Assembly (NCBI RefSeq): GCF_029633825.1
Contig: NZ_CP090641.1
Location: 496,001-560,000, forward strand
Direction: 5' to 3'
DNA from: Burkholderia contaminans
GTDB lineage: Bacteria > Pseudomonadota > Gammaproteobacteria > Burkholderiales > Burkholderiaceae
Length of the DNA: 64,000 nt
Shown here: one piece after another, positions 34,229 through 64,000 of the stretch
Numbering within the stretch: the stretch's first letter is position 1
Layout of the letters: the number at the start of each line of letters is the position of its first letter
Made by a program: the position numbers and the translations under genes
The notes under the pieces: generated by a model
Seen by the model: only the letters and a program-made list of their open reading frames with translations
What the model was told of the DNA's origin: nothing
The model's database searches: none

Positions 34229-34711
34229 TCACGGGATGCGTGCCGCCGAAGCCGGTGCCGCGGCGGCCGCATCGGGATTCGGCGCGAGCCGCAGGCGCAC
34301 GCGCAACGGCTGCAGCATGTCGGGCGGCGGCGGCTCCGCCAGCGGGCCGGCCGTGAGCAGTTGCCGCAGCGTCGCGTCCGCGTCGGGATTGCCGAGCGAC
34401 GCGAACTCGACGCGCGTGACGGCGCCGTTCGTGCCGATCCATGCGCGCACGACGATCGCGGGAGGCGGCGCATCGGCGCTCGCGTTCAGCACACGCGCCT
34501 CGAGATAGCGGTGCAGGCGATCGGCCGCGTCGCCGTCGGCTTCGAGCCACGTCTGGAACTGCTGCCCGGCGAGCTGTCCGTAGCGGATCCACGATGGCGG
34601 CACGTCGGCCGCCTGCGCGACGGCCGAAGGCACGACGCCCACGGCAAGCGCCCATGCGACGACGATCGCCCGCCACCCTCCGGACACGCCCCACTGCTGC
34701 ATTCGCTTCAT
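34229..34711 (-). CDS. Exported protein with TonB C-terminal-like domain
   Basis: A 160-residue product with a signal sequence (WRAIVVAWALAVGVVPSAVAQAA) and GGGAGGCGGA before ATG 34711. The C-terminal 80 residues look like a TonB/TolA C-terminal domain: IVVRAWIGTNGAVTRVEFASLG, a helix DADATLRQLL, then PLRVRLRL. No proline-rich linker is present. It is the last gene of the minus-strand secretion locus and follows the HtrA gene by 64 bp. A close relative, apparently frameshifted, is at 38503-38915. Confidence 0.65.
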   Translation of the reverse strand: MKRMQQWGVSGGWRAIVVAWALAVGVVPSAVAQAADVPPSWIRYGQLAGQQFQTWLEADGDAADRLHRYLEARVLNASADAPPPAIVVRAWIGTNGAVTRVEFASLGNPDADATLRQLLTAGPLAEPPPPDMLQPLRVRLRLAPNPDAAAAAPASAARIP

Positions 34712-34775
34712 TCCGCCTCCCGTTTCGACGATGCGCGATCGTGCTGCGTCGCGTCGTCCACTCGCCCTTCGATCC

Positions 34776-36221
34776 TCAACCGATCTCGATCGGCACATAC
34801 AGACGCGCGCCGCCGCGCTGAATGAGCAGCGCGACGTTGCCGTGCGCGGCGTCGATCTCGGTCATCAACGCGCCGATGTTCGCAACCGGCGTGCCGTTGA
34901 CCGACAGCACGACATCGCCGGGCTGCAACCCCGCGCGCGCGGCCTGGCCGCTCGCCTGCTCGACGACGAGTGCCTGGCCGACGCCGAGCCGCTGGCGCTC
35001 CTGCTCCGTCGCCGCGCGCAGCGCGAGCCCGAACCGCGCGGGCCCTTGCTCGCCGCTCGCCACCGCCGTGCCGCTGTCGAATGCGCCGACCGTCGCGCTC
35101 ATGTGCATCGCCCGTCCCGCGCGCCACACGAGCAGGTCGGCTTGCCGGCCGGCCCGCATGCCCGCAACGGTGCCGAGCAGGTCCGCCGATTCGGCGACCG
35201 GCTTGCCGTCGACCGCGAGCACGACGTCGCCCGGCTGCAGGCCCGCGTGCGCGGCCGGGCCATCCGGCTCGACCATCGTGATCAGCGCGCCGTCGGGGCT
35301 CGCGAGGCCGAACGAACGCGCCAGCGCCTGGCTCACTTCCTGCAAGGCCACACCGAGCCGGCCGCGCGTGACCTTGCCGGTGCGCAGCAACTGGTCCTTC
35401 ACGTCGAGCGCGATGTCGATCGGGATCGCGAACGCGAGCCCCTGATAGCCGCCCGTCTTCGAGAAGATCATCGAGTTGATCGCGATCACGCGGCCACTCA
35501 GGTCGAACAGCGGGCCGCCCGAATTGCCGGGGTTGATCGGCACGTCGGTCTGGATGAACGGAATCGCGCGCTCGCCGGGCAACGAACGCGACTTCGCGCT
35601 AACGATGCCCTGCGTGACCGTATTCGCGAACCCGTACGGCGAACCGATCGCCATCACCCAGTCACCCACTTCGGTGCGCGCCGGGTCGCCGGTCGCGACG
35701 ACCGGCAGGTTGTGCGCGTCGATGCGGATCACCGCCACGTCCGACACCGGATCGCTGCCGATCACGCGCCCCTTGAACTGCCGCTTGTCGGTCAGCTTCA
35801 CGTCGATCGCGACCGCATCGCCGACCACGTGCCGGTTGGTCAGGATCACGCCGTCCTCGCTGACGATGAAGCCGGAGCCGAGGCTCACTTCCTCGCGGTT
35901 GCCGATCACGCGCCGCGCAAGAAACGGTGCGAGCGGATGATCGGGCGCGATGCCCGGCGGCAACTGGATGCCCATCTGCGTGACTTCGCGCGTAACGCTG
36001 ATGTTGACGACGGCCGGGCCGACGCGCCGGACCAGCGCGGCGAAGTTCGGTAGCGCGACGGTCGGCGTCGGGGTTGGCGTCGGCGATGCGGCACCCGGCT
36101 GCGCGGGCCGCTCGGCAGCCGTTGCCGTCGAACAGCCGCATGCGCACGCGCAGGCCAACGCCAGTCCGCCGGCCATCGCTCGCAGCGCCGCTGCCAGGTT
36201 CGTGTGCGTGCCCGCTTTCAT
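34776..36221 (-). CDS. HtrA/DegP-like periplasmic serine protease with two PDZ domains
   Basis: A 481-residue trypsin-fold protease with catalytic triad H131 (TNRHVVGD), D161 (VSDVAVIRID) and S234 (NPGNSGGPLF), followed by two PDZ domains at about 290-370 and 395-475, the usual DegP/DegQ plan. The signal region ends in an odd Cys-rich stretch (LALACACACGCSTA), so it may be lipid-anchored. GAGGAA precedes ATG 36221. A Pro-Thr repeat forms the linker. Within this locus it may remove or fold misassembled exoproteins in the periplasm. Confidence 0.93.
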   Translation of the reverse strand: MKAGTHTNLAAALRAMAGGLALACACACGCSTATAAERPAQPGAASPTPTPTPTVALPNFAALVRRVGPAVVNISVTREVTQMGIQLPPGIAPDHPLAPFLARRVIGNREEVSLGSGFIVSEDGVILTNRHVVGDAVAIDVKLTDKRQFKGRVIGSDPVSDVAVIRIDAHNLPVVATGDPARTEVGDWVMAIGSPYGFANTVTQGIVSAKSRSLPGERAIPFIQTDVPINPGNSGGPLFDLSGRVIAINSMIFSKTGGYQGLAFAIPIDIALDVKDQLLRTGKVTRGRLGVALQEVSQALARSFGLASPDGALITMVEPDGPAAHAGLQPGDVVLAVDGKPVAESADLLGTVAGMRAGRQADLLVWRAGRAMHMSATVGAFDSGTAVASGEQGPARFGLALRAATEQERQRLGVGQALVVEQASGQAARAGLQPGDVVLSVNGTPVANIGALMTEIDAAHGNVALLIQRGGARLYVPIEIG

Positions 36222-36298
36222 GTCGCTGTTCCTCGTCGGTTCGCGCCGGAACGCCGCCGGCTCATCGATACCTGCCCCCATGCCCGGGGCCGCCTGCA

Positions 36299-36682
36299 TT
36301 ACTTCGGCGGCACCGCGACCGGCACATCGGGCCGCTGCGGCGTCGTCGACCTGCCCCAGTTCGAGCCGAAACGGTTCCGCTCGGTCGACAGGTTGAACGT
36401 GCCGAGACGGTTCGACGGCTGTTTCGACAACCGCTCCGAATCCGCTTGCGATGCGCCCGCCTGCGGGTCGGCCTTCGGCTTCAGTTGCTGGCTGAGACAG
36501 TCGTACGACAGCGCACGCTTGCCGTCGACTTCCGCATCGACGCACACCGGCTTCGTGGCCGAACCCGGGCTGGGCGCCGCAGGCGCGGCCGCACCCGCCG
36601 CCGCGCGGCCACCCTGCGCGTTTGCGCCGGTTGCCAGCAGCAGGCAGACGATCGTCGCGATGCCGCTTCGTCGCATCTTCAT
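36299..36682 (-). CDS. Small exported protein of the secretion locus
   Basis: A 127-residue product with signal peptide MKMRRSGIATIVCLLLATGANAQ and GAAGGAGG before the ATG. The mature part starts with a Gly/Ala/Pro-rich linker, then PVCVDAEVDGKRALSYDCLSQQL with two cysteines likely to form a disulfide, then a Pro-rich tail. No family known to me. It lies 77 bp upstream of the HtrA gene and is presumably transcribed with it. Confidence 0.7.
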   Translation of the reverse strand: MKMRRSGIATIVCLLLATGANAQGGRAAAGAAAPAAPSPGSATKPVCVDAEVDGKRALSYDCLSQQLKPKADPQAGASQADSERLSKQPSNRLGTFNLSTERNRFGSNWGRSTTPQRPDVPVAVPPK

Positions 36683-37567: not shown

Positions 37568-38458
37568 CTACCGGGCAGACGCGAGCGCTTTCTTCAGCGC
37601 GTCTTCGTTGATCGGTGCGTTCCCGGCGAGCTTCGCGAGATAGGCCTGCGCGTTCTGCTGGGTGCGCTGCGCACGCAGCATCGCGCGCAGTTGCTCCTTC
37701 ACGTCGTCCAGCGGACGCGGCGCGGCCGCGCGGATGTCGATCAGCTTCACGACATGGAAGCCCGTCGGCGTCTGGATCGGCGCCGAGACCTGGCCCGGCT
37801 TCAGTGCATCGGCCGCCTGACGGACCGCCGGCACCATCAATGGATCGGGCACGAAACCGAGATCGCCGCCGTTCGCGGCACTCGCCTTGTCCTGCGAATT
37901 CGCCTTCGCGAGCGCCGCAAAATCGCCGCCGCGCGCACGGTTCGCGAGATCGGCCGCCTGCTTGCGTGCCTTGTCGAGCGTCGCGGCATCCGCGTTCGGC
38001 GGCACCGCGATGTAGATCTGCGCGACGTGCAGCGCGCGCGGCGCGGTGAACGCCGCTCGGTTCTTGTCATAGGCGGACTGCAACTCCGCGTCCGACGGAT
38101 AGTCGGCCGGCGGTGCATTCACCGACGCCAGATAGCTGCGCACGACGATATCGCGCCGCGCCTGTTCGACGGCGGCCTGCACCTGCGCCTGCTTGTCCCA
38201 GCCCTTCGCTTTCGCCTCGGCCAGCACGGCCTTCTGCGCGAGCGTCGAACGCACGACCTGGTCGAGCGCCGCGGGATCGGCCGCGAGACGTTCGCGTCCT
38301 TCCGGGCTCACCGCCTTCAGCAGCCCCGCGATATCGTCCTGCGTGACCGACGCCTGCGCGGCGTTCGCGATCACGTCGTCCTGTGCATGCGCCACGAACG
38401 GCGCGCCCAGCACGAGACTGCCTGCCACGATCGCCAGCCTCTTCATCTTCGTCATCAT
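37568..38458 (-). CDS. Periplasmic peptidyl-prolyl isomerase, parvulin (PpiC) type
   Basis: A 296-residue protein: signal peptide (KMKRLAIVAGSLVLGAPFVAHAQ), an N-terminal helical chaperone part (VRSTLAQKAVLAEAKAKGWD), then a parvulin domain from about 145 to 250 with ALHVAQIYIAV, the GGDFAALAKANSQD helix, NGGDLGFV and TGFHVVKLID. This is the plan of PrsA/SurA-like foldases. Such a protein in a locus of exported proteins would help fold the porin or exoproteins in the periplasm. A PPIase gene also belongs to the P. aeruginosa Pdt region as I recall it. Confidence 0.92.
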   Translation of the reverse strand: MMTKMKRLAIVAGSLVLGAPFVAHAQDDVIANAAQASVTQDDIAGLLKAVSPEGRERLAADPAALDQVVRSTLAQKAVLAEAKAKGWDKQAQVQAAVEQARRDIVVRSYLASVNAPPADYPSDAELQSAYDKNRAAFTAPRALHVAQIYIAVPPNADAATLDKARKQAADLANRARGGDFAALAKANSQDKASAANGGDLGFVPDPLMVPAVRQAADALKPGQVSAPIQTPTGFHVVKLIDIRAAAPRPLDDVKEQLRAMLRAQRTQQNAQAYLAKLAGNAPINEDALKKALASAR

Positions 38459-38502: not shown

Positions 38503-38915
38503 TCAGCGCGCGTCCGTCAGCGTCATGCGCAGGACGAGCGGCTGCGCCATCCCGCGTGGCGGCGCCGCGCCGACCGCCCGGCCGACGAGCGCGGCGTGCA
38601 GAGCGGCGTCGAGCGCCGGTGGCCCGGCCGCGCCGCTGTCGACGCGCGTCACGTGCCCGTACCGGTCGAGCCACGCGCGCACCGGCAGTACGGGACCGTC
38701 GTCGCCGGCATCGGCCCGTTCGCCGGCCCAGTGCTCGATGCCGGCGCGCAGGTGGCACACCGCCGCGTCGTCGCCGTCGAGCGTCGCCTGCAACCACAGC
38801 GCGATGCGCCGGGCATACGCGCCCCATGCGGCGGGGCGTCGCCCGCGGCCATCGCATCCGCCTCGCGCCGCGCGCGGCCCGGCAGCAGCGCCCGCAGTGC
38901 GGTGCCGATCCTCAC
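38503..38915 (-). pseudogene. TonB C-terminal-like gene with apparent frameshift
   Basis: A GTG at 38915 overlaps the stop of the YbjN gene (GTGA) and opens a natural N-terminus (VRIGTALRALLPGRARREADA). That frame loses homology near 38825. The downstream part, in the frame that ends at 38503, reads AYARRIALWLQATLDGDD and then the TonB-like VRAWLDRYGHVTRVDSGAAG, matching the gene at 34229. The span of 413 bp is not a multiple of three, so one indel close to 38822-38828 (a CCCC run) separates the halves. It is either a real pseudogene or a sequencing error; the alternative ATG at 38949 gives an unlikely Pro/Arg-rich start. Confidence 0.5.
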
Positions 38916-39505
38916 TTCGCGGCGGCCTCGACTGCGGCCGTGGCCGCACCGACCGACGATGCGCCTGCCTGGTCGCCGGCGGCCGCGCGTGCCGCCGCTT
39001 CCTGCTCGGCCATCGCGGGGCGGTTGCGCAGGTGCAGCAGGAATTCCTGGATCAGGCGATCCCACAGCTCGATCGTCGAGCGCAGGTAGCGCTCGGACAC
39101 GCCGCCCGCGACGACCACGTCCATCTCCAGCGCGAGAAACTGTCCGTGGCTCGCCAGGCGCGCGAAGCGCTTGGTCCGGTTCCAGTCCGCGACGAGTTCG
39201 GCCGGCAATTCGCCCTGCACCTGCAGCACGCACGACAGCGTGTAGTCGATGAACAACTGCGCGGCAAGCTGCGCATCCGCGCCCTGCGGCGCGAGCGCGG
39301 CGGCCGGGTTGCCGAAGCGCACCGCGAAACCGATACCCTGGCTCGCGCTCATCAGCTGCACTGCGCCGTTCTGTTCGGCCGCCGTCACGCGGTAGCCCGC
39401 GCGGCGCAGCACGTCGGCGAGATGATCGGCGCTGATCGCTTCGATCGGCGCGTCGTGTGCCGCGCGTTCGTCGCCGGCGTTCGGTTGCTGTTGCTTGTCT
39501 TGCAT
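38912..39505 (-). CDS. YbjN-domain protein
   Basis: A 197-residue protein of the YbjN/sensory-transduction-regulator type. Typical segments are ADHLADVLRRAGYRVTAAEQN, then FAVRFGNPAAAL, LSCVLQVQGELPAELVADWNRTKRFARL and the hydrophobic FLALEMDVVVAGGVSERYLR. The YbjN fold resembles the type III chaperone fold, and some members influence motility or stress response. The start ATG 39505 (MQDKQQQ) is preferred; a GTG at 39568 overlapping the previous stop is possible. The Ala-rich C-terminus is low complexity. Confidence 0.8.
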   Translation of the reverse strand: MQDKQQQPNAGDERAAHDAPIEAISADHLADVLRRAGYRVTAAEQNGAVQLMSASQGIGFAVRFGNPAAALAPQGADAQLAAQLFIDYTLSCVLQVQGELPAELVADWNRTKRFARLASHGQFLALEMDVVVAGGVSERYLRSTIELWDRLIQEFLLHLRNRPAMAEQEAAARAAAGDQAGASSVGAATAAVEAAAK

Positions 39506-39564: not shown

Positions 39565-40254
39565 TCACTGCGCGTTCGCCGCGGCAGCCGGCGCCGATGC
39601 CGGCGCCGGCGTTGCCGCAACCGGCCGCGCGGCCGGGTCGTACTTGCCCGCATACAGCGCATCGCCGTAGCGTTGCGCGATGTCGTCGTACTTCACGCGC
39701 GCCGACTGCGCGAACGGCTGACGCGACGAGAACAGCGTGCCGAGCCCGACATGCTCGTACGCGTCGAGAATCTCGTGCCCCACGCGATACAGCTCCGCAT
39801 TGTGTGCCTGGCAGGTTTTCAGTTGCGTGTCACGGGCGGCGACGTCCTTCTGCAGCTGCGTCTGCTGCGCGTCGCGGGCACGCGACACGGCGAGCAAGTC
39901 CTCGTAGGACGACTTGTATTTCGCCAGCGACTTCGCGTCCTGCTCGCGGCCCGCGCGCTCCTGCGCGAGCGCGCGCTTCGCGGCCGCCTCGGCGCCCGAA
40001 TCGCCGCGCGCGGCCGCCAGTTGCCCCTGCATCGCCTTCAGTTGCGCGAGCGCGTCGTCGCGCTGCTTCTCGGCCGCCGCCTTGTCGCTCTGCAACTGCG
40101 CCTGGTTGTCCTGCAGCTGGCGCAGCTCCTGCACGGTCGAGCGCAACTGGCTGCGCAGCTTGTCCTCGATGCTCTGCGCGTGCGCGCCGCCGGTCGCGAG
40201 CAGCAGCGTGCCGGTCAAGGCGGCAGCGAGCATCGTGCGTGTGATCGTGTTCAT
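39565..40254 (-). CDS. Exported coiled-coil protein
   Basis: A 229-residue product: signal peptide MNTITRTMLAAALTGTLLLATGGAHAQ, then about 100 residues of Gln/Ala/Lys-rich coiled coil (LRQLQDNQAQLQSDKAAAEK), a segment with CQAHNAELYRVGHEILDAYEHVG, and a Pro/Ala tail. It probably sits in the periplasm and could bridge membrane and envelope partners such as the porin encoded 12 bp upstream. No catalytic motif is seen. The gene order porin, coiled coil, YbjN, TonB-like, parvulin looks like one operon. Confidence 0.75.
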   Translation of the reverse strand: MNTITRTMLAAALTGTLLLATGGAHAQSIEDKLRSQLRSTVQELRQLQDNQAQLQSDKAAAEKQRDDALAQLKAMQGQLAAARGDSGAEAAAKRALAQERAGREQDAKSLAKYKSSYEDLLAVSRARDAQQTQLQKDVAARDTQLKTCQAHNAELYRVGHEILDAYEHVGLGTLFSSRQPFAQSARVKYDDIAQRYGDALYAGKYDPAARPVAATPAPASAPAAAANAQ

Positions 40255-40266
40255 CCGCGGCTCCGG

Positions 40267-42078
40267 TCAGAAGCGAGCATTGAGCTCGATCTGCAGCACG
40301 TCGATCGATACCGGCGGCCCGTACACTTCCTTCGAGCTCAGGTAACGGGCCGACACCCACGTATCGCGTGCGACCGCATACGCGGCGCCGAGCACATAGC
40401 CGCGCGCGTTGGTGCCGCCAAGGTGGAAGTCGGGATCGTTGAATGCATCGAGCACGGCGTCCGGCTGCAGGTACTTGTACGCGATCGAGAAGTTCCACTG
40501 GCCCTTCTCGCGCGGCTCCGGCTCGCCGAACGTCGCCTTCGCGAGGAAGCCGTTCGGGCCGCTGCGATAGTCGGCGCGCGTCGCGTTCACCGACGTCGAA
40601 TCGTAGTTGTTGACCGGCAGCGACGCCGCCGCGAACGCCTTGTTGTCGTTGTACGCGAGGTTGCGCACATATTCGCCGTCGAGACGCAGCTTGAAGCGAT
40701 CGGCCACCACCGTGTCCCACTGTGCCTTCAGGTCGAGCAGCCGGTAGTTGTAGGCCAGGCCGAACAGCTGCGGCTGCGGCGTCATGCCCGGCGCGAGGTT
40801 CGGGTTCTGCACGATGTTGCGCAGCGCGATCAGCGTGTTGCCGCCCTGCATGAACGCCGGCGCCTCGTTGTCGGTGCTGCAGCTCGTCGCGCCGAGATAC
40901 AGCGCGCACGGCGACGACAGCGTGCCGCGCATGTTCTGGAAGTCGTAGTACGCGAGCGCGCCGCGCAGCCGGTTCTTCGCGTCGATCTTCCAGTCGGCGC
41001 CGAACTGCGCGCCGAACATCCACTTCGTATCGCTGCCGGCCTTCTCGGTGCTGTTCGACGGGAAGTTCTCGCTCGTGTACTGGATCGGGAACACGCCGAG
41101 CGTGCCGAACAGCGTGACGTCCGGATTCCACGGCAGCGCATGGCGCAGGTTCGCGGCGATCCCATCCATCATCAGGTCGTCGGAGAACACGAGATCCGAC
41201 TTGAAGAACGGATTGTCGAAACGGCCGGCCGTCAGGTTCAGCCACGAGGTCGGCTTGTATGCGAAGAATGCCTTGTTCAGCCAGATGTTCTTCTTCGCGA
41301 AACCGCCGCCCGCGGTGGCCGTGGTCGATACGGGCCCGTTGTCGTTGCCGCTCGCGAGCTGGATGCCGGCGATCATCTCGTCGGACAGTGTGGCCGTCAC
41401 GCCGAGCCGCGCGCGGTAGCGCAGCAGGTTGTTGCGGTTCTCCCGCGTGTTCTGCGTGGGGATCTGCGTGTTGTTCGTGTTCGAGTTGACGTCGAAGCCG
41501 CCGCCCTGGTTGATCGCCGCGAAGTTCGTCACGCCGTTCGTGTTGTTGCCGCCGTAGAAGTGATACTCGTCGCGCACGCGCAGGTCGCCGTCGAGCTTGA
41601 TGCGCGACACCCAGTCGGGGAACGTGTTCGGCTGCGCCCAGTTCTCGGCCTTCGCCTGCGCGATCACTTCCTGCTTCACCTGGTCGCGGATCTGGTCGCG
41701 CACGAGTTGCGGCACGTACGGCACCGCGACGTCGCCCGGCTGCGTCGGCGGGTTGACCACGCCGGCCGCCACGACCGGCGCGCCCGATGCGCGGGCCGAC
41801 CGCGCCTGCACGGCCTCGGTGCGCGCCTCGCTGATCAGCTCGTTCGCGTTCTGCTGCGTGAGCACGCCGCGCTTCACGAGCAGGTTGATCAGGTTGATCA
41901 CCACGCTTTCCGTCGGCGCGGCTTTCCCCGACGCCGCCTGCGCCTCGAGCGACTGCCCGTGCGCGGCGGACGCGCAGGTCAGCCCGAGCGTCAGCACCGC
42001 CGCGCCGACGCGCGACAGGCGCGCGGGTAGCGCGCCGTTGCGAGGCACCCCACCCCGTCCGTTCAAATTCCGAATCAT
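40267..42078 (-). CDS. Large putative porin (Porin_5-like)
   Basis: A 603-residue outer-membrane protein. The signal sequence ends at ASAAHGQ; a helical coiled-coil part (NLLVKRGVLTQQNANELISEAR) follows, then a beta-barrel with many alternating strands from KLDGDLRVRDEYHFYG to a C-terminal Phe (IELNARF). The mix of short coiled coil and big barrel is typical of putative porins found with TonB/ExbB systems. ATG 42078 has GGAG upstream. It may be the outer-membrane partner of the TonB encoded next to it, although it lacks a plug domain. Confidence 0.85.
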   Translation of the reverse strand: MIRNLNGRGGVPRNGALPARLSRVGAAVLTLGLTCASAAHGQSLEAQAASGKAAPTESVVINLINLLVKRGVLTQQNANELISEARTEAVQARSARASGAPVVAAGVVNPPTQPGDVAVPYVPQLVRDQIRDQVKQEVIAQAKAENWAQPNTFPDWVSRIKLDGDLRVRDEYHFYGGNNTNGVTNFAAINQGGGFDVNSNTNNTQIPTQNTRENRNNLLRYRARLGVTATLSDEMIAGIQLASGNDNGPVSTTATAGGGFAKKNIWLNKAFFAYKPTSWLNLTAGRFDNPFFKSDLVFSDDLMMDGIAANLRHALPWNPDVTLFGTLGVFPIQYTSENFPSNSTEKAGSDTKWMFGAQFGADWKIDAKNRLRGALAYYDFQNMRGTLSSPCALYLGATSCSTDNEAPAFMQGGNTLIALRNIVQNPNLAPGMTPQPQLFGLAYNYRLLDLKAQWDTVVADRFKLRLDGEYVRNLAYNDNKAFAAASLPVNNYDSTSVNATRADYRSGPNGFLAKATFGEPEPREKGQWNFSIAYKYLQPDAVLDAFNDPDFHLGGTNARGYVLGAAYAVARDTWVSARYLSSKEVYGPPVSIDVLQIELNARF

Positions 42079-42170: not shown

Positions 42171-42875
42171 TCATGCCGGCTTGCGCCCCTGAAGCTTGAC
42201 GAGCACCGGATACGAGGTCGCCGGCGGCGGCACCTCGTCGACCCGGCCGAGCGCTTCGACCGCCGCGACGACGGCCGCATCGATCTTCGCGTCGCCGGTG
42301 GACTGCGCGATCGTCACCTTCGTGATTCGCCCCGACGTATCCATCCACAGGTTCAGGCTGCCCGCGAACCGCGCGCCGCCGGCCTCCTGCACGCCCTTGT
42401 CCTGCTCGATCGCGCGCTGCAACACGTACACCATGTATTGCGCATAGCTCGCGTTGCCGAACTTGCCGCCCCCGCCGCTGCCGACCATCCCCGAGCCGTC
42501 GCCCGCGCCGATGCCGAAGTTGTCCGTGCCCGCCTGCGCATCGGCATTCATCGTCATCTGCTTCGGCTGGTTGTCCGACGGCTTCGGCGCCTCGGACGGC
42601 TTCGGCGCGATCGTCGGCCGCTCGACCGGCGTCTTGACCTCTTCCTTGATCTTCTCGGGCGGCGGCTTCTGTTTCGGCGGCGGCGGCGGGGGCGGCGGCG
42701 GCAATGGAATCACCGTCGTCACCTGCGGCGCGCTCACGCGCTTCACGCCCGCGGTATCGCCCGCGAAATGCCAGATCAGCGCGGCCACGCCCGCGAGCAC
42801 CAGCGCGATCGCGACGGGCTTCACGTAGCGGCCGGGGCCCTTGTCCGGCGGGCCGCCGTTGTAGGTCATCTCCAT
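42171..42875 (-). CDS. tonB: TonB energy transducer
   Basis: A 234-residue TonB: short cytoplasmic start, one membrane span (PVAIALVLAGVAALIWHFAG), a proline run at about 58-66, a Lys/Pro/Glu linker (PPPEKIKEEVKTPVERPTI), a Gly-rich hinge, and a TonB C-terminal domain (FAGSLNLWMDTSGRITKVTIAQSTG). It transmits proton-motive force from ExbB-ExbD to outer-membrane proteins. It lies 4 bp after exbD and 93 bp before the large porin gene, forming a dedicated system. ATG 42869 is an alternative start. Confidence 0.93.
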   Translation of the reverse strand: MEMTYNGGPPDKGPGRYVKPVAIALVLAGVAALIWHFAGDTAGVKRVSAPQVTTVIPLPPPPPPPPPKQKPPPEKIKEEVKTPVERPTIAPKPSEAPKPSDNQPKQMTMNADAQAGTDNFGIGAGDGSGMVGSGGGGKFGNASYAQYMVYVLQRAIEQDKGVQEAGGARFAGSLNLWMDTSGRITKVTIAQSTGDAKIDAAVVAAVEALGRVDEVPPPATSYPVLVKLQGRKPA

Positions 42876-56030: not shown

Positions 56031-56777
56031 CTAGCCCCGGACGGCCGGCTGCGGCGCCGGACAGCGGAAATGCACGCCGTTGCCGGCCGGCCGCAGCAGG
56101 ATCGTGACCGGCTGCGGCAGGTCCGCCGGCGGCGCGTCGTCCAGCTTCAATGCGCGCAGCGCGCGCATCACCGCCGCGTCGCGGGCGGCCGAACCGCTCG
56201 ATGCCACCATGTTGACCGCCACCACCGCCCCCCTGTTGTCGATGCGCACCTGCGCGACGAGTCGATAGCTGCCCGGCACCGCTGCCGGCTGCGCACACAG
56301 CGCATCAATCAGATGCGCCTGCAGCAGGCCCGCGAACGCGCGCCGATCGCCGGAATCGCCGACCCCGTCGATCGGCAAGGCCGCATCCGCCGGCGTGTCG
56401 GCCGTCGCGGGCGCCTGCTCGGCGGCCGGCTGCGCGACGATGATCGCTTCGTCCGGGCGCGAGAATTCCGCACGCAACCCCGTTCCGGCCAGCATCCGCT
56501 CGAGCGCGGCGCGCGGCACGAATTCGCCCTGGACAGGCGCACTCGTGCGCCCGTCGAGCAGTGGCGCGGGCGCCAGCACGATCAGCTCGGTGAGCCGCGC
56601 GAAGTCCTGCAACGTCTTCGCGAGCGGCTGCGCGGGCAGATCGAAATGCACCACGCTACCCGGCTGGCGGACGATGGAACCGGTCTCCTGCGCGTGTATG
56701 CCGTGCATGCACGGCACGACGAACGCCAGCCACGCGACGAGCGCCAGGACACCGGTCGGCGCCCGTGAACGAGTCAT
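56031..56777 (-). CDS. Receptor-like signalling protein: STN domain plus TonB-like domain, no barrel (VreA-like)
   Basis: A 248-residue exported protein. After the signal peptide comes an STN domain (VVHFDLPAQPLAKTLQDFARLTELIVLAPAPLLDGRTSAPVQGEFVPRAALERMLAGTGLRAEF shortened here; about 40-105), a Pro/Ala linker, and a TonB/TolA-like C-terminal domain (YRLVAQVRIDNRGAVVAVNMVASSG, about 165-240). There is no plug or beta-barrel, so it cannot be an outer-membrane receptor. This matches VreA of P. aeruginosa, the receptor-like component of PUMA3. It precedes the ECF sigma and FecR genes. Confidence 0.88.
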   Translation of the reverse strand: MTRSRAPTGVLALVAWLAFVVPCMHGIHAQETGSIVRQPGSVVHFDLPAQPLAKTLQDFARLTELIVLAPAPLLDGRTSAPVQGEFVPRAALERMLAGTGLRAEFSRPDEAIIVAQPAAEQAPATADTPADAALPIDGVGDSGDRRAFAGLLQAHLIDALCAQPAAVPGSYRLVAQVRIDNRGAVVAVNMVASSGSAARDAAVMRALRALKLDDAPPADLPQPVTILLRPAGNGVHFRCPAPQPAVRG

Positions 56778-56959: not shown

Positions 56960-57466
56960 TCACGGCCGGCGCACGACGAAGTTGCCGATGCCCGTGCCGA
57001 CCACGGCCATCCGCACGTCGCCGGACCACAGCGTGATCGTCACGGGCACGTCGATGCCTTCACTGCCGAGCACGACGCGCGACGGCACTTCGCCGCCGCC
57101 GGTGTACCGCACCGACACGCCCGTCACTTCCGCGCCCCAGCGGCGTGCGCGATACAGGTCGTCGGTCATCGGCGCCCACGTGCCGCTTTCGGTGCGCTGC
57201 ACGAAGCGATAGCCGCCGCCCACCGTCTGCCACGCGATCGGAATCGACCGCACCTGCGCTTCGTCGCCGGCCGATTCGAGCAGGTTCGCCAGGCGCTGGG
57301 CCTCCTCCGCCAGATCGGTGCGTCGATTGCGCGACGGCGCGAGCGTCACGACCGCGACCAGCAATCCAACGATCACGAGCACGACGAGCATCTCCAGCAG
57401 CGTGAAACCCGCCGCCGTGCGATGCGCGGTGAGCGCGCGCCGTCCGCGACTGTTCAGGATGCGCAT
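56960..57466 (-). CDS. gspH: Type II secretion pseudopilin GspH
   Basis: A 168-residue minor pseudopilin. The prepilin motif is AAGFTLLEMLVVLVIVGLLVAVV with cleavage after Gly and Glu at +5. The soluble part has the GspH-like ALEEAQRLANLLESAGDEAQV helix and C-terminal VVRRP. ATG 57466 lies 7 bp before the gspG stop, just downstream of it on the minus strand, so both are in one operon. It forms part of the pseudopilus tip with GspI, J and K, of which only K is in the window. Confidence 0.9.
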   Translation of the reverse strand: MRILNSRGRRALTAHRTAAGFTLLEMLVVLVIVGLLVAVVTLAPSRNRRTDLAEEAQRLANLLESAGDEAQVRSIPIAWQTVGGGYRFVQRTESGTWAPMTDDLYRARRWGAEVTGVSVRYTGGGEVPSRVVLGSEGIDVPVTITLWSGDVRMAVVGTGIGNFVVRRP

Positions 57467-57473: not shown

Positions 57474-57944
57474 TCACTGCCACGAGCCGATGTCCGCATC
57501 GTTCCCCTCGCCACCCGGTTTGCCGTCCGCGCCGTAGCTGAACACGTCGATCGCGCCGTGCGCGCCCGGGTTCAGGTATTGATACGCGTTGCCCCACGGA
57601 TCCTTCGGCAACCGCTCCAGATAGCCGCCGTCCTTCCAGTTGTTCGGCACCGGATCGGTTGCCGGCTTCTGGACCAGCGCGGTCAGCCCCTGCTCCTGCG
57701 ACGGATAGCGGCCGTTGTCGAGGCGATACAGGTTCAACGACTGCATCATCGTGCCGATGTCCTGCTTCGCGGCGATGCGGCGCGCCTCGTCCGGGCGGCT
57801 CATGATCTTCGGCACGATCAGCGCCGCGAGAATCCCCAGGATCGCGACCACCACCATGATCTCGATCAGCGTGAAGCCGCGTTGCGTGTGTCCTCCCGCG
57901 TGGCCGGCGTATCGCGTTCGGGTTTCGTTGGGCCCCGTCATCAT
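57474..57944 (-). CDS. gspG: Type II secretion major pseudopilin GspG
   Basis: A 156-residue major pseudopilin with prepilin site and helix (RGFTLIEIMVVVAILGILAALIVPKIM), the GspG hallmark helix QDIGTMMQSLNLYRLDNGRYPSQEQGLTALV, then PVPNNWKDGGYLERLPKDPWGNAYQYLNPG and GADGKPGGEGNDADIGSWQ, the calcium-binding loop of the family. GAGGGTG precedes ATG 57944. It polymerises into the pseudopilus that pushes substrates through the secretin. It is divergent from gspC. Confidence 0.96.
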   Translation of the reverse strand: MMTGPNETRTRYAGHAGGHTQRGFTLIEIMVVVAILGILAALIVPKIMSRPDEARRIAAKQDIGTMMQSLNLYRLDNGRYPSQEQGLTALVQKPATDPVPNNWKDGGYLERLPKDPWGNAYQYLNPGAHGAIDVFSYGADGKPGGEGNDADIGSWQ

Positions 57945-58005: not shown

Positions 58006-58452
58006 ATGAAACCGTTCGACCTGCTTCGCATCGCGCCGTCGCGCGCCGATCTCGTTCCACTCGCCGCGACGCTCGCTGCCGCGGCCGCACTCGTGACTGT
58101 GTCGCTGTGGGCCGTGCGCGTGCTGAGCGCTGCCGATGCGCCGGTCGCGACGCTTGCACCGCCGCCCGCGCCGATCGACGTTGCCGCCGGCACGCGGCTG
58201 TTCGGTGCAAAACCCGACGACGGCCGCGATGCCATCCAGCTGCTCGGCGTGCTCGCCTTCGATGCGCGCCGTGCGGCCGCGATCGTCAGCGTCGGCGGCG
58301 ACGCGTCGCGCGTCGTGTCACTCGGCGCGGCAATCGGCGAAGCCGCGAAACTGGCCGAGGTTCGCGCACGCTCGATCGTCGTCGACCGCAACGGGCTGCA
58401 TCGCGAGATCGCGCTGCCCGCCGCGGAGAAAACCAACGCATACGTGCGCTGA
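58006..58452 (+). CDS. gspC: Type II secretion GspC-like inner-membrane protein
   Basis: A 148-residue protein: short cytoplasmic start, one membrane span (LAATLAAAAALVTVSLWAVRVL), then a homology-region domain with RLFGAKP, IQLLGVLAFDARRAAAIVSVGG and the late strands VRARSIVVDRNGLHREIALP. This is GspC without the C-terminal PDZ or coiled coil, as in short HxcP-type proteins. GspC links the inner-membrane platform to the secretin. It converges with gspF (8-bp gap). Confidence 0.8.
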   Translation: MKPFDLLRIAPSRADLVPLAATLAAAAALVTVSLWAVRVLSAADAPVATLAPPPAPIDVAAGTRLFGAKPDDGRDAIQLLGVLAFDARRAAAIVSVGGDASRVVSLGAAIGEAAKLAEVRARSIVVDRNGLHREIALPAAEKTNAYVR

Positions 58453-58460: not shown

Positions 58461-59678
58461 TCACTGCACCATGTTGTTCAGCTCGATGATCGGCATCATC
58501 ACCGCCAGCACGATCACGAGCACCACGCCGCCCATCGCGAGAATCAGCAGCGGTTCGAGCAGGCTCGTCAGGAACATCGTGCGGCGCTCCAGCTCGCGCG
58601 ATTCGCCTTCGGATGCGCGATCGAGCATCGTCGTCACGTCGCCCGTCGCCTCGCCCGAACGGATCAGGTGCACGAGCACCGGCGGAAACGTCTTCGTATG
58701 CGCCAGCGCGCGTGACAGTGCCGAGCCCTCGCGCACGCGGACGATCGCATCGTCGACGTTCGCGCGCATCGCACGGTTCGACAACGTCTCGCCGGCCGCC
58801 TGCAGCGCGCGCAGGATCGGTACGCCGGCCGCCGTGAGGATGCCGAGCGTGCTCGCGAAACGCACCGTGTTGTAGCCGCGTACGAGCTTGCCGGCGAGCG
58901 GCGCGGTCAGCACCCACGTGTCGAACCTGAGCCGCGGCGCATCGCGCGACAGCACCTTGCGGATCGCATAGACGATCGCGACCATCGCCGCGAGCGACGC
59001 CCACCACCAGTGCCGCACGAAGTCAGACAGCGCGAGCATCACGACCGTCAGCGTCGGCAGCTGCTGCTTCGTGCTGGTGAACACGTTCGCGACCTGCGGC
59101 ACGACGTAGCTCAGCAGGAACGTGACAATGCCGAACGCGATCAGCGTGACAATGCCCGGATACGTGAACGCGAGCAGGATCTTTTGTTTCAGCGCGTTGC
59201 TTTGTTCGATGTAGTCGGCCAGGCGCGACAGCACGATGCCGAGCTTGCCGGTGTGCTCGCCGGCCGCGACGAGCGCGCGGTAGATTTCCGGAAAATCGCG
59301 CGGATGCTGGCTCAGCGCGTTCGCGAACGAATGGCCGCCGACGACTTCCGCGCGGATCGACGCCATCAGCTCGCGCACGTAGTCGCGCTCGGCCTGCTCG
59401 CTCAGCACCGACAGCGATTCGTCAAGCGGCAGCCCCGCGACCAGCAGGCTCGCGAGCTGGCGCGTGATGATCGCCTGCTCGCGCTGCGACAGCTTGCGGC
59501 CGAGCGACAGGCGTTGATGACGTTCGCCGTGCAGGCGCTGCGCGGCCAGCTCGACGATCAGCGGCGTGAGACCTTGCGTGCGCAGATGGCTGCGGCCTGC
59601 GCGCGCGCTGTCGGCTTCGAGCACGCCTTTCAGCGTGCGGCCGGTGGGATCGATCGCTTCGTAGCGGAATGCCGACAT
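58461..59678 (-). CDS. gspF: Type II secretion inner-membrane platform protein GspF
   Basis: A 405-residue GspF: the N-terminal FRYEAIDPTGRTLKGVLEADSA, two repeated cytoplasmic T2SSF domains with LASLLVAGLPLDESLSVLSEQ and FASTLGILTAAGVPILRALQAAGE, and membrane segments near 170, 220 and 375. It forms the inner-membrane core on which the GspE ATPase acts. GAGGG precedes ATG 59678. The ATPase, secretin and GspL/M are not in the window. Confidence 0.95.
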   Translation of the reverse strand: MSAFRYEAIDPTGRTLKGVLEADSARAGRSHLRTQGLTPLIVELAAQRLHGERHQRLSLGRKLSQREQAIITRQLASLLVAGLPLDESLSVLSEQAERDYVRELMASIRAEVVGGHSFANALSQHPRDFPEIYRALVAAGEHTGKLGIVLSRLADYIEQSNALKQKILLAFTYPGIVTLIAFGIVTFLLSYVVPQVANVFTSTKQQLPTLTVVMLALSDFVRHWWWASLAAMVAIVYAIRKVLSRDAPRLRFDTWVLTAPLAGKLVRGYNTVRFASTLGILTAAGVPILRALQAAGETLSNRAMRANVDDAIVRVREGSALSRALAHTKTFPPVLVHLIRSGEATGDVTTMLDRASEGESRELERRTMFLTSLLEPLLILAMGGVVLVIVLAVMMPIIELNNMVQ

Positions 59679-60339
59679 GTCAGTGCCCTCGTGTCACGCG
59701 TGCGACTTTTTCGGCGACGGCGCGCAATGTGCCGGACGGAGTCGCCGGGGAAGACTACGGAGCGAACCAGCGCAGATTTGTGACGGATGTTGGGCTACCT
59801 TTTTGGGCGGGGTTTATTACGTCTCGTCGTTATTGTTATAACTTAAAAACGATTTCATTTTTATTCACCAAATCAATCGGCCGCAATTAAATACACACGA
59901 TTTTCGCCAACCGCCCATTTGCTGACTCACCCGCCAAACGGAAGCAATACATCAAAGACACATGTATTCATCGGCGCGCGGAATGTTCCGTAACATCCGC
60001 CACAAAACCGTCTTGAAGTTGGGATAGCGCTGCGCATGGCTCAGATACGAAGCCAATGGTTCCAGCCACGCATGACGCAGGCTCCCGCGCATAATCCGTC
60101 GAACGCCCCCGGCTGCATCCCAATATCTGGACGTTCCGACTGGCGCGAATGTCGCTCCAATTCACGCTTTACCAATCCGAATAACGCAATGGCTCATTCG
60201 ATAAAAATGTTACGTACCATTCGTTATGAAAAATTCACACGCGTCATTCGTATTTCCCCCTACATTTACCCGGCGGTCCACAAGCATTCCAACCGCAGTA
60301 GCAGGGGTTCCCGTTTATCTTCGTTCAAGGAAATTTCTC
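59679..60339. other. 661-bp AT-rich intergenic region before the DING-like gene
   Basis: No supported gene. The base composition drops strongly (for example 59800-59900). Three CATTCG copies, at 60195-60200, 60218-60223 and 60245-60250, lie 90 to 145 bp before the DING-like gene, and GTCAT-like elements occur there, but no convincing Pho box (two TGTCA half-sites at 11 bp) was found. It probably holds the promoters of gspF and of the DING-like gene. Confidence 0.4.
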
Positions 60340-61641
60340 ATGAAATCCAGCAAGCGCAAGATCTGTCAAGTCCTCGCTCTCGTTGTTTCCGGTCTGGGCG
60401 CCACGGCCGCAATGGCCGCGGACATCCACGGCGGCGGTTCGTCGCTCGTCGCCCCGACCATCGGCGCGATCGGCAATACCGCGACCGAAATCGGCCTGTT
60501 CGGCACCGCCGAAGGCTCGTTCACGTACTACTCGGTTGGCTCGGGCGCCGGCCAGAACGCATTCCTGAACAACCAGCCGACGTTCTTCGGCTCGACGGTT
60601 ACGGGCACGGTCCACTTCGCGAACAGCGATGCGGCGCTGTCGACCGCCCAGCTCACGTCGTACAAGGCCGGCCTTGGCGCGACCAACGGCCCGCTGATCC
60701 AGATCCCGTACATCGTCACGCCGATCACGGTGCCGGTCGTCAACGGCCCGGCCGTCACGAGCACGACGACGCCGCAAACGACGCCGGGTCAAGCGCACAG
60801 CATCGCGCTGAACGACAACGACCTGTGCGGCATCTTCTCGGGCAAGCTGACCGACTGGAACCAGGTCATCAACCCGCAAACGGGCTCGGCGTACACGACG
60901 ACCAGCTCGCCGATCAAGGTCGTCTACCGTTCGGACGGCAGCGGCACGACCGAACTGCTGACCCGCCACCTGGCAGCTGTCTGCTCGAGCGCCAATACGG
61001 CCACGGGTGTAACGTTCGTCGATTCGCTGACGTTCACGGCTTCTTTCCCGGGCGGCGTACCGGCAAACTTCACGCCCGCTTCGGGTAGCGGTGGCGTCCG
61101 TTCGCAACTGGTGAGCTATCAGTCGGCCGGTACGGCTGCTGTCGCTTACCTGAGCCCGGACTACACGAACACGTTCCTGGCTCCGCAAAGCACGGTCGTG
61201 ACGCCGGCCAGCGCATTCCAGATCCCGGTTGCTAGCCTCGTGAACGCGACGAACGGCGTGTACTACGCACCGACGTATGCGAACGCAACGACGGCGCTCA
61301 GCACGGCTACCGTGCCGAGCAGCCAAGCTCGCGCCGCCAATCAGGCCAACTGGGTGCCGAACGTCGGCAATCCGGGTTCGGGCTATCCGGTTTCGGGCAC
61401 CAGCCAGATCATCCTGAGCCAGTGCTATGCGGATTCGTCGGTCAAGACCGCCGTGCACGACTTCCTGAACGCTCACTTCACGAATGCCAGCTTTGCGTCG
61501 ATCGTTCACGGCAACGGCTTCGATACCGTGTCGTCGAACTTCCAGAACGCGATTTCGGCCGACTTCCTGAGCAACACGAGCGGCTATAACCTCGACATCG
61601 GCAACACGGGCGTCTGCACGGGCTCGGTGACCGGTCGTTAA
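60340..61641 (+). CDS. DING/PstS-like exported phosphate-binding protein
   Basis: A 433-residue exported protein of the PstS/DING type. Signal peptide MKSSKRKICQVLALVVSGLG, cleaved around residues 26-27, so the mature protein begins near DIHGGGSSLVAP, a variant of the DINGGG start. Phosphate-ligand motifs are kept: YYSVGSGAGQ, FANSDAAL and R197-S-D-G-S-G-T203. There are no pst transport genes nearby, so it is probably secreted, plausibly by the T2SS of this locus, as DING proteins are with Hxc. AAGGAAA precedes ATG 60340; a terminator follows. Confidence 0.9.
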   Translation: MKSSKRKICQVLALVVSGLGATAAMAADIHGGGSSLVAPTIGAIGNTATEIGLFGTAEGSFTYYSVGSGAGQNAFLNNQPTFFGSTVTGTVHFANSDAALSTAQLTSYKAGLGATNGPLIQIPYIVTPITVPVVNGPAVTSTTTPQTTPGQAHSIALNDNDLCGIFSGKLTDWNQVINPQTGSAYTTTSSPIKVVYRSDGSGTTELLTRHLAAVCSSANTATGVTFVDSLTFTASFPGGVPANFTPASGSGGVRSQLVSYQSAGTAAVAYLSPDYTNTFLAPQSTVVTPASAFQIPVASLVNATNGVYYAPTYANATTALSTATVPSSQARAANQANWVPNVGNPGSGYPVSGTSQIILSQCYADSSVKTAVHDFLNAHFTNASFASIVHGNGFDTVSSNFQNAISADFLSNTSGYNLDIGNTGVCTGSVTGR

Positions 61642-61714: not shown

Positions 61715-61801
61715 GTATTCAGGACATGCCCGAAATGTCCGGCTCCTTGGCGTCTGGCTGCCTACGGACATCGTCGCCCTGCCCGCAGAGAGAATCTCAT
61801 C

Positions 61802-63093
61802 ATGCGGCTTTTTCAATGCAAACTTTGCCAAATCATCACCCTGGCGCTTTCCGGCGTTGGTGCCACAACCGCGATGGCCACACCGAATCTCCAAGGTGGT
61901 GGCTCGTCGCGCCGCTCATCGGTATGATTGGCAACGCTTCGTCTGAAATTGGACTGTTTGGTACTGCAGAAGGTACATTCACGTATTACTCGGCCGGTCC
62001 GGGTATTGGCGGGAACGCGTTTGTCGCCAACCAGCCGACCTACCTCGCCGCAAATCTCACGTGAACGGTTGATTTTGCGAATGTCGACATAACGCTACTC
62101 GACGCGGATATCAAAGCATATTCAACCGGACTCGGTGCGACCAACGGACCACTGATTCAGATTCCGTACGTCGTTGCCCCTATCACGATCCCGATAGTTA
62201 ATGGACCAATCGTGACCAGCACGACGACGCCGCAAACAACGCCCAACCAAGCCCACAGCGTCGCGCTGAACGACGATGACCTCTGCGGTATTTTCTCGGG
62301 CAAACTCTCGAACTGGAATCAGGTGACCAATCCCGAAACAGGTTCGCCGTACACTCTCAATGCGCCTATCACGGTCGTCTATCTTCCGAGAGGGGACGAA
62401 GGCACGAACAAGATGTTGAGCCGCCATCTGGCATCTGTTTGTACACAGTCCAATACGGCCGTAGGTGTCACGTTCGTCGAGTCGATCATGTTCGCTGCTT
62501 CATTCCCGAACGCCCATGTCCCGAACAACTTCGTCAGTGCGGCGGGAAGCGGCGACCTACGCCGTGCTCTCTTGTCATCCCAAGGTGCCGCGATCGGTTA
62601 CCTGAGTCCTGCCTATGCGAATACGTTCCTTGCTGCTTCTAGCTCGGTCGTAACTGAATCAGGCGCAGCGCAATTACCAGTGGCGAGCCTTCTGAATTCA
62701 ATCGATGGAAAATACTACGCCCCGACCCATGCAAATGCGACGGTGGCGTTCGGTACGGCGGCAGCACCGGACAATAAAGTCACTGCAACCAATCCGGCAG
62801 CCTGGGTGCCCAACATCGGCAACCCGCCCGCCGGATATCCGCTTTCGTTCACGAGCCAGATCATTGTGAGTCAATGTTACTCAAATCCGACCGTTATATT
62901 AGCGATGCGCGATTTCCTGAGCATTCACTACACGAATGTCAATTTTGCGTCGCTTATTCAAGGTAATGGTTTCGGCACGATCCCGTCGAATTTTCAGTCG
63001 GCCATTTCGAACACATTCCTTAGTAACGTCAACGGCTATAACCTTGACATTGGTAATGCGAGTGTCTGTTCTGGCCAGGTGACCGGTCGCTAA
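61802..63093 (+). pseudogene. Second DING/PstS-like gene, disrupted
   Basis: A paralog of the gene at 60340, readable over its whole length. From ATG 61802 the frame gives MRLFQCKLCQIITLALSGVG and GGGSS, then shifts: compared with the paralog 7 bp (one copy of CTCGTCG) are missing near 61903-61910. Restoring 7 bp makes 1299 bp, exactly 433 codons. In the restored frame a TGA stands at 62062-62064. The phosphate ligands are altered too: VGSGAGQ is AGPGIGG, and RSDGSGT is LPRGDEGT. The gene is AT-richer than its sister, consistent with relaxed selection. Confidence 0.85.
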
Positions 63094-63210
63094 GCTGTCT
63101 TCGGAAAACCTTTTGACGTTATGACTCGGTTCTTGGAACTCGACGCGTCGAACGCTTCGCCCCCCCGGTGATCCGCGTTAGCGTTACTCACCCCGTTTCC
63201 TGCCGATATG

Positions 63211-63241
63211 AAAACGAGCCATCAGCCCATCTGGCGGCTCG
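63211..63241 (-). terminator. Hairpin after the haemagglutinin-family gene
   Basis: CGAGCC (63215-63220) and GGCTCG (63236-63241), extended by mostly paired bases inside, are followed on the minus strand by TTTTC. It is 16 bp past the stop codon at 63257. Confidence 0.65.
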
Positions 63242-63256
63242 CTTCGTCTTCACTTG

Positions 63257-64000
63257 TCAAATCTTGCCCAACCGTGCACGCTCCTCGGCCGTGAGAACCG
63301 CCCTCTGCGACGGCCCCGCCTGACCAAACCCGAGAATCGACACCGAACTCGACGCGTCGTAGCCTACCTGCTGTTTGTGCTTCTTCCCGCCGTCCCCCCC
63401 CGCATCGCCGAACCCCTCGACCTGCACCGAGATCGTCCAGCGACGTGACGACACACCGGATGCGTTGTTCTTGGCCATATCCTGGGCGACCTGGGTCGCA
63501 GCCGATGCGGCTGCACTCGCAGCCGTGAGCGCGCCGGTATTCACCGCCTGCACGAGCGGAATGCCACTCGCCTTGCCGGTTACCTGGATATTGTCCGCGT
63601 TCACGACGCGCAGTGCCGCGACGTTCAGGTTGCCGGCACGAATACCCGCATCGCCCGCATCGACCGTACCGCGCGGTGCAATCAGGTTGATCGTGCCGAG
63701 CGGTACGCCCGGAACGCTCTGCAGTGTCGCGATACCCGCGCCGGTGACTTGCCCGCGTGCATCGACCGTGCAGTAGTGGTTCGCATCGCAAACATATTGC
63801 GGGGCCGGCGTATCGGCTGACGATTTCGCACCCTTGCCCGCGTTGATATCGCCGTTCGAGCTCCAGATCGTCATGTCTCCGCCCTGCTCGGTGAAGATCC
63901 GGCTCTGCGCGAGCAGCACGCTACGATCCGTGAAGATATCGATATCCCCCTGTTCGAGCGTGAGAATCCCCATCGTCCCGGGCCCGGCGATCACTTTGCC
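63257..64000 (-). CDS. Filamentous-haemagglutinin-family exoprotein (TpsA), C-terminal part
   Basis: The last 247 codons of a minus-strand gene whose beginning lies beyond the right edge. The sequence has the beta-helix style of FHA proteins (LTLEQGDIDIFTDRSVLLAQSRIFTEQGGDMTIWSSNGDINAG without the rest; GTINLIAPRGTVDAGDAGIRAGNLNVAALRVVNADNIQVTG in part) and the C-terminal features of the DUF3739 type, with GKKHKQQVGYD and RAVLTAEERARLGK at the end. It is the expected substrate of the TpsB at 45173-46825, as PdtA is of PdtB. No toxin domain is evident. Confidence 0.88.
   Translation of the reverse strand, partial: GKVIAGPGTMGILTLEQGDIDIFTDRSVLLAQSRIFTEQGGDMTIWSSNGDINAGKGAKSSADTPAPQYVCDANHYCTVDARGQVTGAGIATLQSVPGVPLGTINLIAPRGTVDAGDAGIRAGNLNVAALRVVNADNIQVTGKASGIPLVQAVNTGALTAASAAASAATQVAQDMAKNNASGVSSRRWTISVQVEGFGDAGGDGGKKHKQQVGYDASSSVSILGFGQAGPSQRAVLTAEERARLGKI

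Follow-up and report, generated by a model that had tools for sequence, protein, structure and literature searches.

The window analyzed here is a 64,000-nucleotide stretch of the Burkholderia contaminans genome (positions 496001 to 560000 of contig C2, NZ_CP090641.1, in a genome of 9.44 Mb), which was read together with the next 50 kb. It holds a locus in which a cell-surface signalling module, a two-partner secretion (TPS) system for a giant exoprotein and a partial set of type II secretion system (T2SS) genes lie together. Window numbering is kept throughout, positions above 64000 lying beyond the window, and families were called by matches to Pfam and NCBIfam profiles against the cut-offs of the models. 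Three blocks of genes run on the minus strand: gspI-gspJ, three genes for tetratricopeptide repeat (TPR) glycosyltransferase-like proteins and tpsA (84249 to 63257); gspF-gspG-gspH-vreA-ecf-fecR (59678 to 54469), a stretch in which gspC runs the other way; and TIGR03032-cysC-tpsB-exbB-exbD-tonB-porin-coiled coil-ybjN-ppiC, running on to htrA (48795 to 34776). From their spacing, the three blocks are probably operons. The plus strand carries gspK and the DING genes, and a phdA-like gene sits between the blocks. An earlier note on this DNA had named TpsB, a TpsA C-terminus, an ExbB fusion with ExbD and TonB, a parvulin, gspC, F, G, H and K, an extracytoplasmic function (ECF) sigma factor, FecR, an STN-TonB protein and DING-like proteins, with HtrA, YbjN, a large porin and a CysC-TIGR03032 pair as additions, and the profile matches, of a kind not expected by chance, bear out all of these.

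The signalling module consists of a VreA-like protein of 248 amino acids with an STN and a TonB C-terminal domain and no barrel (56031..56777, minus; PF07660 and PF13103 only), a VreI-like ECF sigma factor (55476..56024, minus; Sigma70_r4_2, E 1e-12) and a VreR-like FecR-type anti-sigma factor (54469..55464, minus; PF04773, E 4e-12, and DUF4880). Beside it lie an 85-amino-acid protein with a match to DUF4880, which corresponds to the N-terminal part of FecR-type proteins (53960-54217), and a conserved 298-amino-acid protein without a Pfam family (52792-53688; ratio of nonsynonymous to synonymous substitution rates [dN/dS] 0.10-0.23). VreA of Pseudomonas aeruginosa is described as an STN domain joined to a TolA/TonB-like domain, without a barrel (PMC2729926, in the passages on PUMA3). 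Both this barrel-less form and the vreA-vreI-vreR order are found here (56777-54469, minus), linked to a TPS system, exbBD and a PA0696 homologue, the last recognized by family and position. For comparison, relatives were sampled as tpsB-side stretches from 20 and tpsA-side stretches from 20, most of which leave about 10 kb inside tpsA uncovered; gene presence was read from tblastn matches at E 1e-4, which a short diverged gene, GspC above all, can escape. In 17 of the 20 relatives, a single 20-kb stretch contains VreA, ECF, FecR, TpsB and ExbB. TpsB and the ExbB fusion occur in all 18 relatives whose locus holds T2SS genes, and VreA, ECF and FecR in 17 of these 18, the exception being the stretches of G183, where the order also differs. 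G016 has a diverged VreA-ECF-FecR set (32-38%) directly before tpsA (L344 4821-6999), with no T2SS genes or TPR-glycosyltransferases alongside in its fetched stretches. An ordinary iron-type FecIR signalling system that came to lie beside a TPS system by chance would account for the STN domain, which matches iron receptors, and for the match of FecR to model NF007296 (E 1e-21, far below its cut-off). The missing receptor barrel, the PUMA3-like form and gene order, and the linkage to tpsB-exbB in those 17 stretches make this explanation extremely improbable.

Intergenic blocks strongly conserved across relatives lie upstream of tpsB (46860-46960) and upstream of gspF (59680-59900), and these may be ECF sigma-dependent promoters. 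A TTCGYTCCG-type motif spotted by eye upstream of gspF, tpsB and TIGR03032 does not exceed chance in the version that was scanned, its two sites being reached by 13 of 100 shuffles. Two observations weigh against signalling of the PUMA3 kind as we read it: PHO-box-like sites in the 64 kb (6 with at most three mismatches, 5.18 expected) stand at chance level, and VreA of P. aeruginosa is seemingly not needed for activation of its sigma factor VreI (PMC7035377, in the text on VreA). In L004, 3 such sites were found against 1.36 expected.

The third block encodes the outer-membrane transporter of the TPS system and what would be its dedicated energizing machinery, all on the minus strand. TpsB, which is PdtB-like (45173..46756; POTRA_2, E 2e-17; ShlB, E 8e-25), is followed by ExbB fused to DUF2341 and LamG domains (43309..45105; PF10102, PF13385, PF01618; best named match Burkholderia cepacia, 96%), ExbD (42880..43290; PF02472, E 1e-28) and a tonB4-like TonB (42171..42875; TonB_2, 25.1 bits, cut-off 22). 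Next come a Porin_5 outer-membrane porin in the position of PA0696 (40267..42048; PF16930, E 1.7e-191), a probable periplasmic coiled-coil protein in that of PA0697 (39565..40254; no family over cut-off), a YbjN-family protein (38912..39505; PF10722, E 8e-9), a PA0699-like parvulin of the PpiC type (37568..38458; Rotamase, E 5e-23; P. aeruginosa order from the part of PMC2729926 that gives it) and, at the far end, an HtrA-type PDZ protease (34776..36299; Trypsin_2, E 1e-32, and PDZ). A longer frame, 39830-42280, was rejected as the porin gene in favor of 40267-42048. Around the ExbB fusion, in the best 80 of 517 named loci, many of them incomplete and none of them from P. aeruginosa, matches were obtained to ExbD (78 loci), the porin (73), the TpsA C-terminus (47), the coiled-coil protein (39), TpsB (25) and HtrA (9); the ExbD, porin, TpsA and TpsB counts indicate that a dedicated TonB system is a common companion of this type of TPS. 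In some other genera, too, the block comes with T2SS-type genes (L186, L187, L188, L205, L221, L232, L238, L266). Two of these loci, L238 and L266 of Luteibacter, hold a secretin gene together with vreA-ecf-fecR, tpsB-exbB-exbD-tonB-porin and a tpsA N-terminus, and are possibly a fuller TPS/T2SS locus.

The tpsA gene enters the window with its C-terminal DUF3739 part (63257..64000, minus) and continues to 76027. The earlier note had expected its N-terminus beyond the window, and it is indeed there: TpsA is complete, with 4256 amino acids and 2 cysteines, an N-terminal TPS-type stretch (residues 163-265) that matches EtpA (E 5e-11), heme/hemopexin-binding TpsA and an adhesin, and DUF3739 at the C-terminus (E 8e-37), giving a TPS exoprotein with both the TPS domain and DUF3739. 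Directly upstream (76213-82979, minus) are three genes for proteins of 740-753 amino acids with long TPR arrays, whose last 300 residues match PF01075, a GT9-like domain, with 25.2, 23.2 and 20.0 bits (cut-off 22). The family GT41 (PF13844) gave no match at E 0.1 in the C-terminal 300 residues of all three. Genes of this kind were matched in 19 of 20 tpsA-side stretches; G183 has two of the three and G016 none. Their place and architecture suggest that the three proteins modify TpsA in the cytoplasm before export. This is tempered by the GT9 match, which is short (30-42 residues) and passes the cut-off in two of the three proteins, and by three relatives (G126, G273 and G298; L181, L182 and L183) in which the transferases or TpsA look broken or partial. 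The same three also lack TIGR03032 and CysC.

At the head of the third block, TIGR03032/DUF4915 (47623..48795, minus; 443.4 bits, cut-off 251.5) precedes CysC, an adenylylsulphate kinase (46976..47626, minus; TIGR00455, 202.3 bits, cut-off 138.7). Structural modeling of the former (predicted local distance difference test score 87.4) yielded a predicted six-bladed beta-propeller with invariant His and Cys residues. Among 299 genomes, TIGR03032 passes its cut-off in 22, all of which fall within the 59 that have the ExbB fusion (E 1e-80), and the pair sits beside tpsA or tpsB, with TIGR03032 next behind tpsA in G183 and G016. Among named relatives, Paraburkholderia kururiensis (L263) carries TIGR03032 and CysC. 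Association with giant exoproteins extends beyond this family: in 20 distant loci, taken from 32 genomes over the cut-off with our own genome excluded, TIGR03032 adjoins unrelated giant frames in 7, some of them with TPR-glycosyltransferases, as against no frame of 1500 amino acids in 12 control stretches, mostly from other genomes. In L294, a PKHD-type 2-oxoglutarate-Fe(II) oxygenase (10610-11287) stands beside TIGR03032 and a frame of 2724 codons. We infer that TIGR03032 takes part in cytoplasmic modification of the exoprotein. Alternatively, TIGR03032 and CysC could form a passenger cassette unrelated to TpsA. Both are missing from 5 otherwise similar loci that retain vreA-ecf-fecR, tpsB and exbB (G011, G126, G193, G273, G298), and CysC is missing from 2 of 14 loci with TIGR03032. 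These gaps, which count against a part in TpsA modification, mean that neither gene is essential to the locus. In 13 of the 20 distant loci, moreover, the 1 kb around TIGR03032 contains no giant frame running in its direction, and of 6 further family genomes with TIGR03032-like matches under the cut-off, 2 (G097, G130) have the ExbB fusion. The passenger explanation is nevertheless unlikely, if the least so of the alternatives considered here, given the ExbB fusion in 22 of 22 genomes, the position next to tpsA or tpsB and the giant neighbors in unrelated bacteria. No paper in the library searched names TIGR03032 or DUF4915, and the link of TIGR03032, in bacteria of unrelated groups, with TPR-glycosyltransferases and giant exoproteins offers a functional lead for the family.

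The T2SS genes are spread over the locus. On the minus strand are gspF (58461..59678; T2SSF, E 2e-59), gspG for the major pseudopilin (57474..57902, start approximate; T2SSG, E 2e-43), gspH (56960..57466; PF12019, PF07963) and, in the sequence beyond the window, gspJ (83157-83825; N-methylation motif) and gspI (83809-84249). On the plus strand lie gspC, between gspG and gspF (58006..58452, start approximate; PF11356, 28.4 bits with frame neighbors, cut-off 27), and gspK for a minor pseudopilin (50028..51023; T2SSK, E 2e-11). The earlier note had taken the locus for a counterpart of the Pseudomonas Vre/Hxc/Pdt region, a view that it would have given up if no secretin and ATPase lay beyond the window. 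The vreA-ecf-fecR and tpsB-exbB-exbD-tonB-porin-PpiC orders agree with that view, but a complete Hxc-type T2SS is not there: GspC, F, G, H, I, J and K are present, and the housekeeping GspD, E, L, M and N, used as tblastn queries at E 1e-4, found no match in the 114 kb of the window and the next 50 kb. The genome has 9 secretin-domain and 16 T2SSE-domain matches, all of them outside the locus.

The loci of 18 relatives show that this absence is graded (G016 and G174 have no T2SS genes in the locus, and G234 was sampled on the tpsA side). GspF, H, I, J and K are found in 18 of 18, GspC in 14 and GspG in 8; GspL and GspM remain in two (G171, G193), GspD in one (G171) and GspE and GspN in none, GspE having been searched within the loci. 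Outside the locus, a strong GspD match is present in 19 of 19 relatives; beyond these there are the copy inside the locus of G171, another at a different place in G183 and, in G240, a weak match (27%). Identity between locus and housekeeping proteins of our genome is likewise uneven: 86% for F, 85% for G, 53% for H, 45-50% for I, 37% for K and 35-36% for J (35% for the gspJ given above), with C at 46% over 118 or 51% over 86 residues. In four orthologous housekeeping sets in which F is 86-88% identical, the values are 81-87% for G, 74-82% for H, 73-82% for I, 64-69% for K, 63-68% for J and 56-66% for C, and in a fifth, with F at 80%, they are 81, 57, 56, 51, 46 and 51%, respectively. GspF and GspG have therefore changed no more than orthologues from other genera, GspC slightly more, and the tip pseudopilins far more. 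The locus genes are under purifying selection, with dN/dS, computed against 7 of the 18 relatives, of 0.03-0.19 for F, 0.09-0.28 for H, 0.03-0.34 for I, 0.07-0.29 for J and 0.11-0.26 for K, as well as 0.05-0.11 for G (5 relatives having it) and 0.16-0.43 for C (6 of the 7). If the housekeeping machine supplies the missing parts, one would expect this combination of purifying selection on the genes that remain with a lack of D, E, L and M and, in some loci, of G. We propose that the locus T2SS is a re-targeting set, working with a secretin and an ATPase borrowed from the housekeeping system.

Three other explanations of the partial set were weighed. The genes might be the decaying, functionless relic of a once complete Hxc-like system, as the failure to find D, E, L, M and N in our own locus, the lack of a full-length G in 10 of 18 relatives and the fuller sets of G171 and G193 could suggest. 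A relic would hardly keep F, H, I, J and K in every one of 18 loci, with dN/dS across the 7 relatives no higher than 0.34 for any of them, or than 0.43 for C. The tip of the pseudopilus is the presumed site of cargo recognition, and here the losses have fallen on shareable parts and spared those of the tip. We regard decay as improbable. The set could instead build a separate pseudopilus or use another secretin and ATPase than the housekeeping Gsp ones, for example those of a type IV pilus-like cluster (C1:2353-2363k), which carries its own secretin and T2SSE. Against this stand the 85-86% identity of locus F and G to housekeeping F and G, the next GspF-like matches in 15 relatives, which are at 35-36%, and the Gsp type of the D, L and M that some loci retain; such a partner seems to us rather less probable still. 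Finally, the near-identity, being confined to F and G, might come from gene conversion by the housekeeping operon and not from shared partners. In a GspF tree, read without its root, which was placed by one very long row, a single branch (100/99) parts 16 housekeeping copies, plus the locus copy of G183, from the 14 other locus copies. Three genera have locus copies that fall outside the housekeeping branch, which implies that the two kinds have long been apart. On this evidence from GspF, gene conversion is highly unlikely. The possibility that GspF owes its 86% identity to gsp genes duplicated recently was rejected as well, since the locus and housekeeping clades both span genera.

Returning to the re-targeting set, some findings speak against it. 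F and G are in every case better conserved than the minor pseudopilins, and C falls barely below the orthologue range; the unusual feature is the size of the identity gap for H, I, J and K. In B. vietnamiensis, a screen for mutants that had lost extracellular depolymerase activity yielded transposon hits from gspC to gspM of a complete cluster, a result confirmed with a gspE mutant (PMC13101487). Copies of the locus genes, if present in B. vietnamiensis, therefore do not replace the housekeeping ones under those conditions, a result that fits a separate cargo and fits non-expression too. Among the papers listed by literature searches, none had a title concerned with a type II set sharing housekeeping parts.

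The probable cargo candidates lie next to these genes. A DING/PstS-like protein is encoded at 60226..61641 (plus; PF12849, E 1e-24; TIGR00975, E 6e-20, below cut-off), and a second DING copy, with a PstS/DING-like periplasmic binding protein match, at 61726..63093 (plus) is broken up, having a frame change as well as a stop. Two DING matches each are present in G171, G183 and G193. The phdA-like gene (51045..52680, minus) combines a DDE-transposase-derived part (PF01609), which passes the cut-off, with a C-terminal Phd-like domain (PF02604), which does not (21.4 bits, cut-off 29.8); the Phd-containing protein of the earlier note thus stands in its transposase part and falls short in the Phd match. 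Here its two halves lie in different frames, whereas they share a single frame in 25 of 25 relatives' loci having both, and a programmed frameshift was rejected on that ground. In two more loci, G183 (L156) and Burkholderia sp. WAC0059 (L223), the C-terminal Phd part alone was matched, a hint that it is the Phd domain that counts.

Taken together, we consider it reasonably probable that the locus is a Burkholderia form of PUMA3/Pdt that includes a modified TpsA and a borrowed Gsp machine. In this scheme, the VreA-ECF-FecR module would control export of one giant exoprotein, TpsA, which is probably modified in the cytoplasm by the three TPR-glycosyltransferases encoded just upstream, with help, in many species, from the TIGR03032 propeller protein and usually CysC. 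TpsA would then cross the outer membrane through TpsB, served by a porin, a parvulin and a dedicated ExbB-ExbD-TonB system that would energize its export. The partial set C, F, G, H, I, J and K would direct the housekeeping Gsp machine, whose D, E, L, M and N it would borrow, toward another cargo, probably DING proteins. A broader proposal, which we put forward only tentatively, has two parts: such a re-targeting T2SS (C, F, G and H-K onto the housekeeping secretin, ATPase and L/M) and a module of general use by which giant exoproteins are matured in the cytoplasm, in which a TIGR03032 propeller enzyme with an invariant His/Cys site would act with GT9- or GT41-type TPR-glycosyltransferases before TPS or type I-like export. 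With several stages of T2SS reduction visible among living relatives, the locus is a natural experiment that bears on two questions, which subunits of a T2SS determine the choice of cargo and which ones different systems can have in common.

The core of this finding is already in print, since PUMA3, tpsA/tpsB, exbBD and some hxc-like genes were reported for B. vietnamiensis in 2009 (Llamas et al. 2009, PMC2729926). As there, hxc-like genes lie upstream and are interrupted by tpsA, and tpsB with exbBD follows downstream; the passage on that species is silent on missing T2SS parts, glycosyltransferases and TIGR03032-CysC. What goes beyond print is the partial nature of the T2SS, the three TPR-glycosyltransferase-like proteins before tpsA and the tracking of the locus by TIGR03032. 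The comparison with P. aeruginosa was made with published gene order, families and descriptions. Its PUMA3 shares with our locus the VreA architecture, the vreA-ecf-fecR order, TpsA/TpsB, a transposase/Phd-type protein and T2SS genes alongside, and the order phdA-pdtB-exbB2-exbD2-tonB4-PA0696-PA0697...PA0699 (PpiC) agrees, as far as the relevant sections describe it (PMC2729926, PMC4971064, PMC7035377). Those sections also report that overexpression of VreI raises hxc, tpsA, the transposase-like gene, tpsB, exbB2, exbD2 and PA0696-PA0699 (Llamas 2009, PMC2729926), that a single promoter drives phdA, pdtB, exbB2D2, tonB4 and PA0696-PA0701 (PMC4971064) and that PA0696 is a putative porin (PMC7035377). 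Our locus differs in its partial T2SS, housekeeping-like in F and G, in having DING genes, with no lapA turning up in the proteins searched, in the added TPR-glycosyltransferase-like genes, TIGR03032-CysC and HtrA, and in a pho box not above chance.

Sharing of T2SS parts has a parallel in XphA/XqhA of P. aeruginosa, an orphan pair of a C and a D subunit that joins up with the Xcp T2SS. The two cases differ in what is added: XphA/XqhA provides an additional C and D and depends on Xcp for all else, whereas our locus provides an additional C, F, G and minor pseudopilins and would depend on the housekeeping machine for D, E, L, M and N. For the putative modification of TpsA, HMW1C, which is GT41-like, differs from the proteins described here, which combine TPR with a GT9-like domain, occur in three copies and have no GT41 match. 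The gene arrangement is nonetheless the same, with a TPS exoprotein beside a cytoplasmic glycosyltransferase gene in the HMW1A-HMW1B-HMW1C system of Haemophilus influenzae, as outlined in PMC5422565. In FlmG of Caulobacter, an N-terminal TPR part binds flagellin and a C-terminal GT-B-like domain follows, with modification before export (PMC7591256, in the portion on FlmG). FlmG shares the plan of TPR and C-terminal transferase, a likeness by architecture, and differs in having flagellin as its substrate; as portrayed in these accounts FlmG and HMW1C show how such enzymes act on exported proteins (PMC7591256, PMC5422565).

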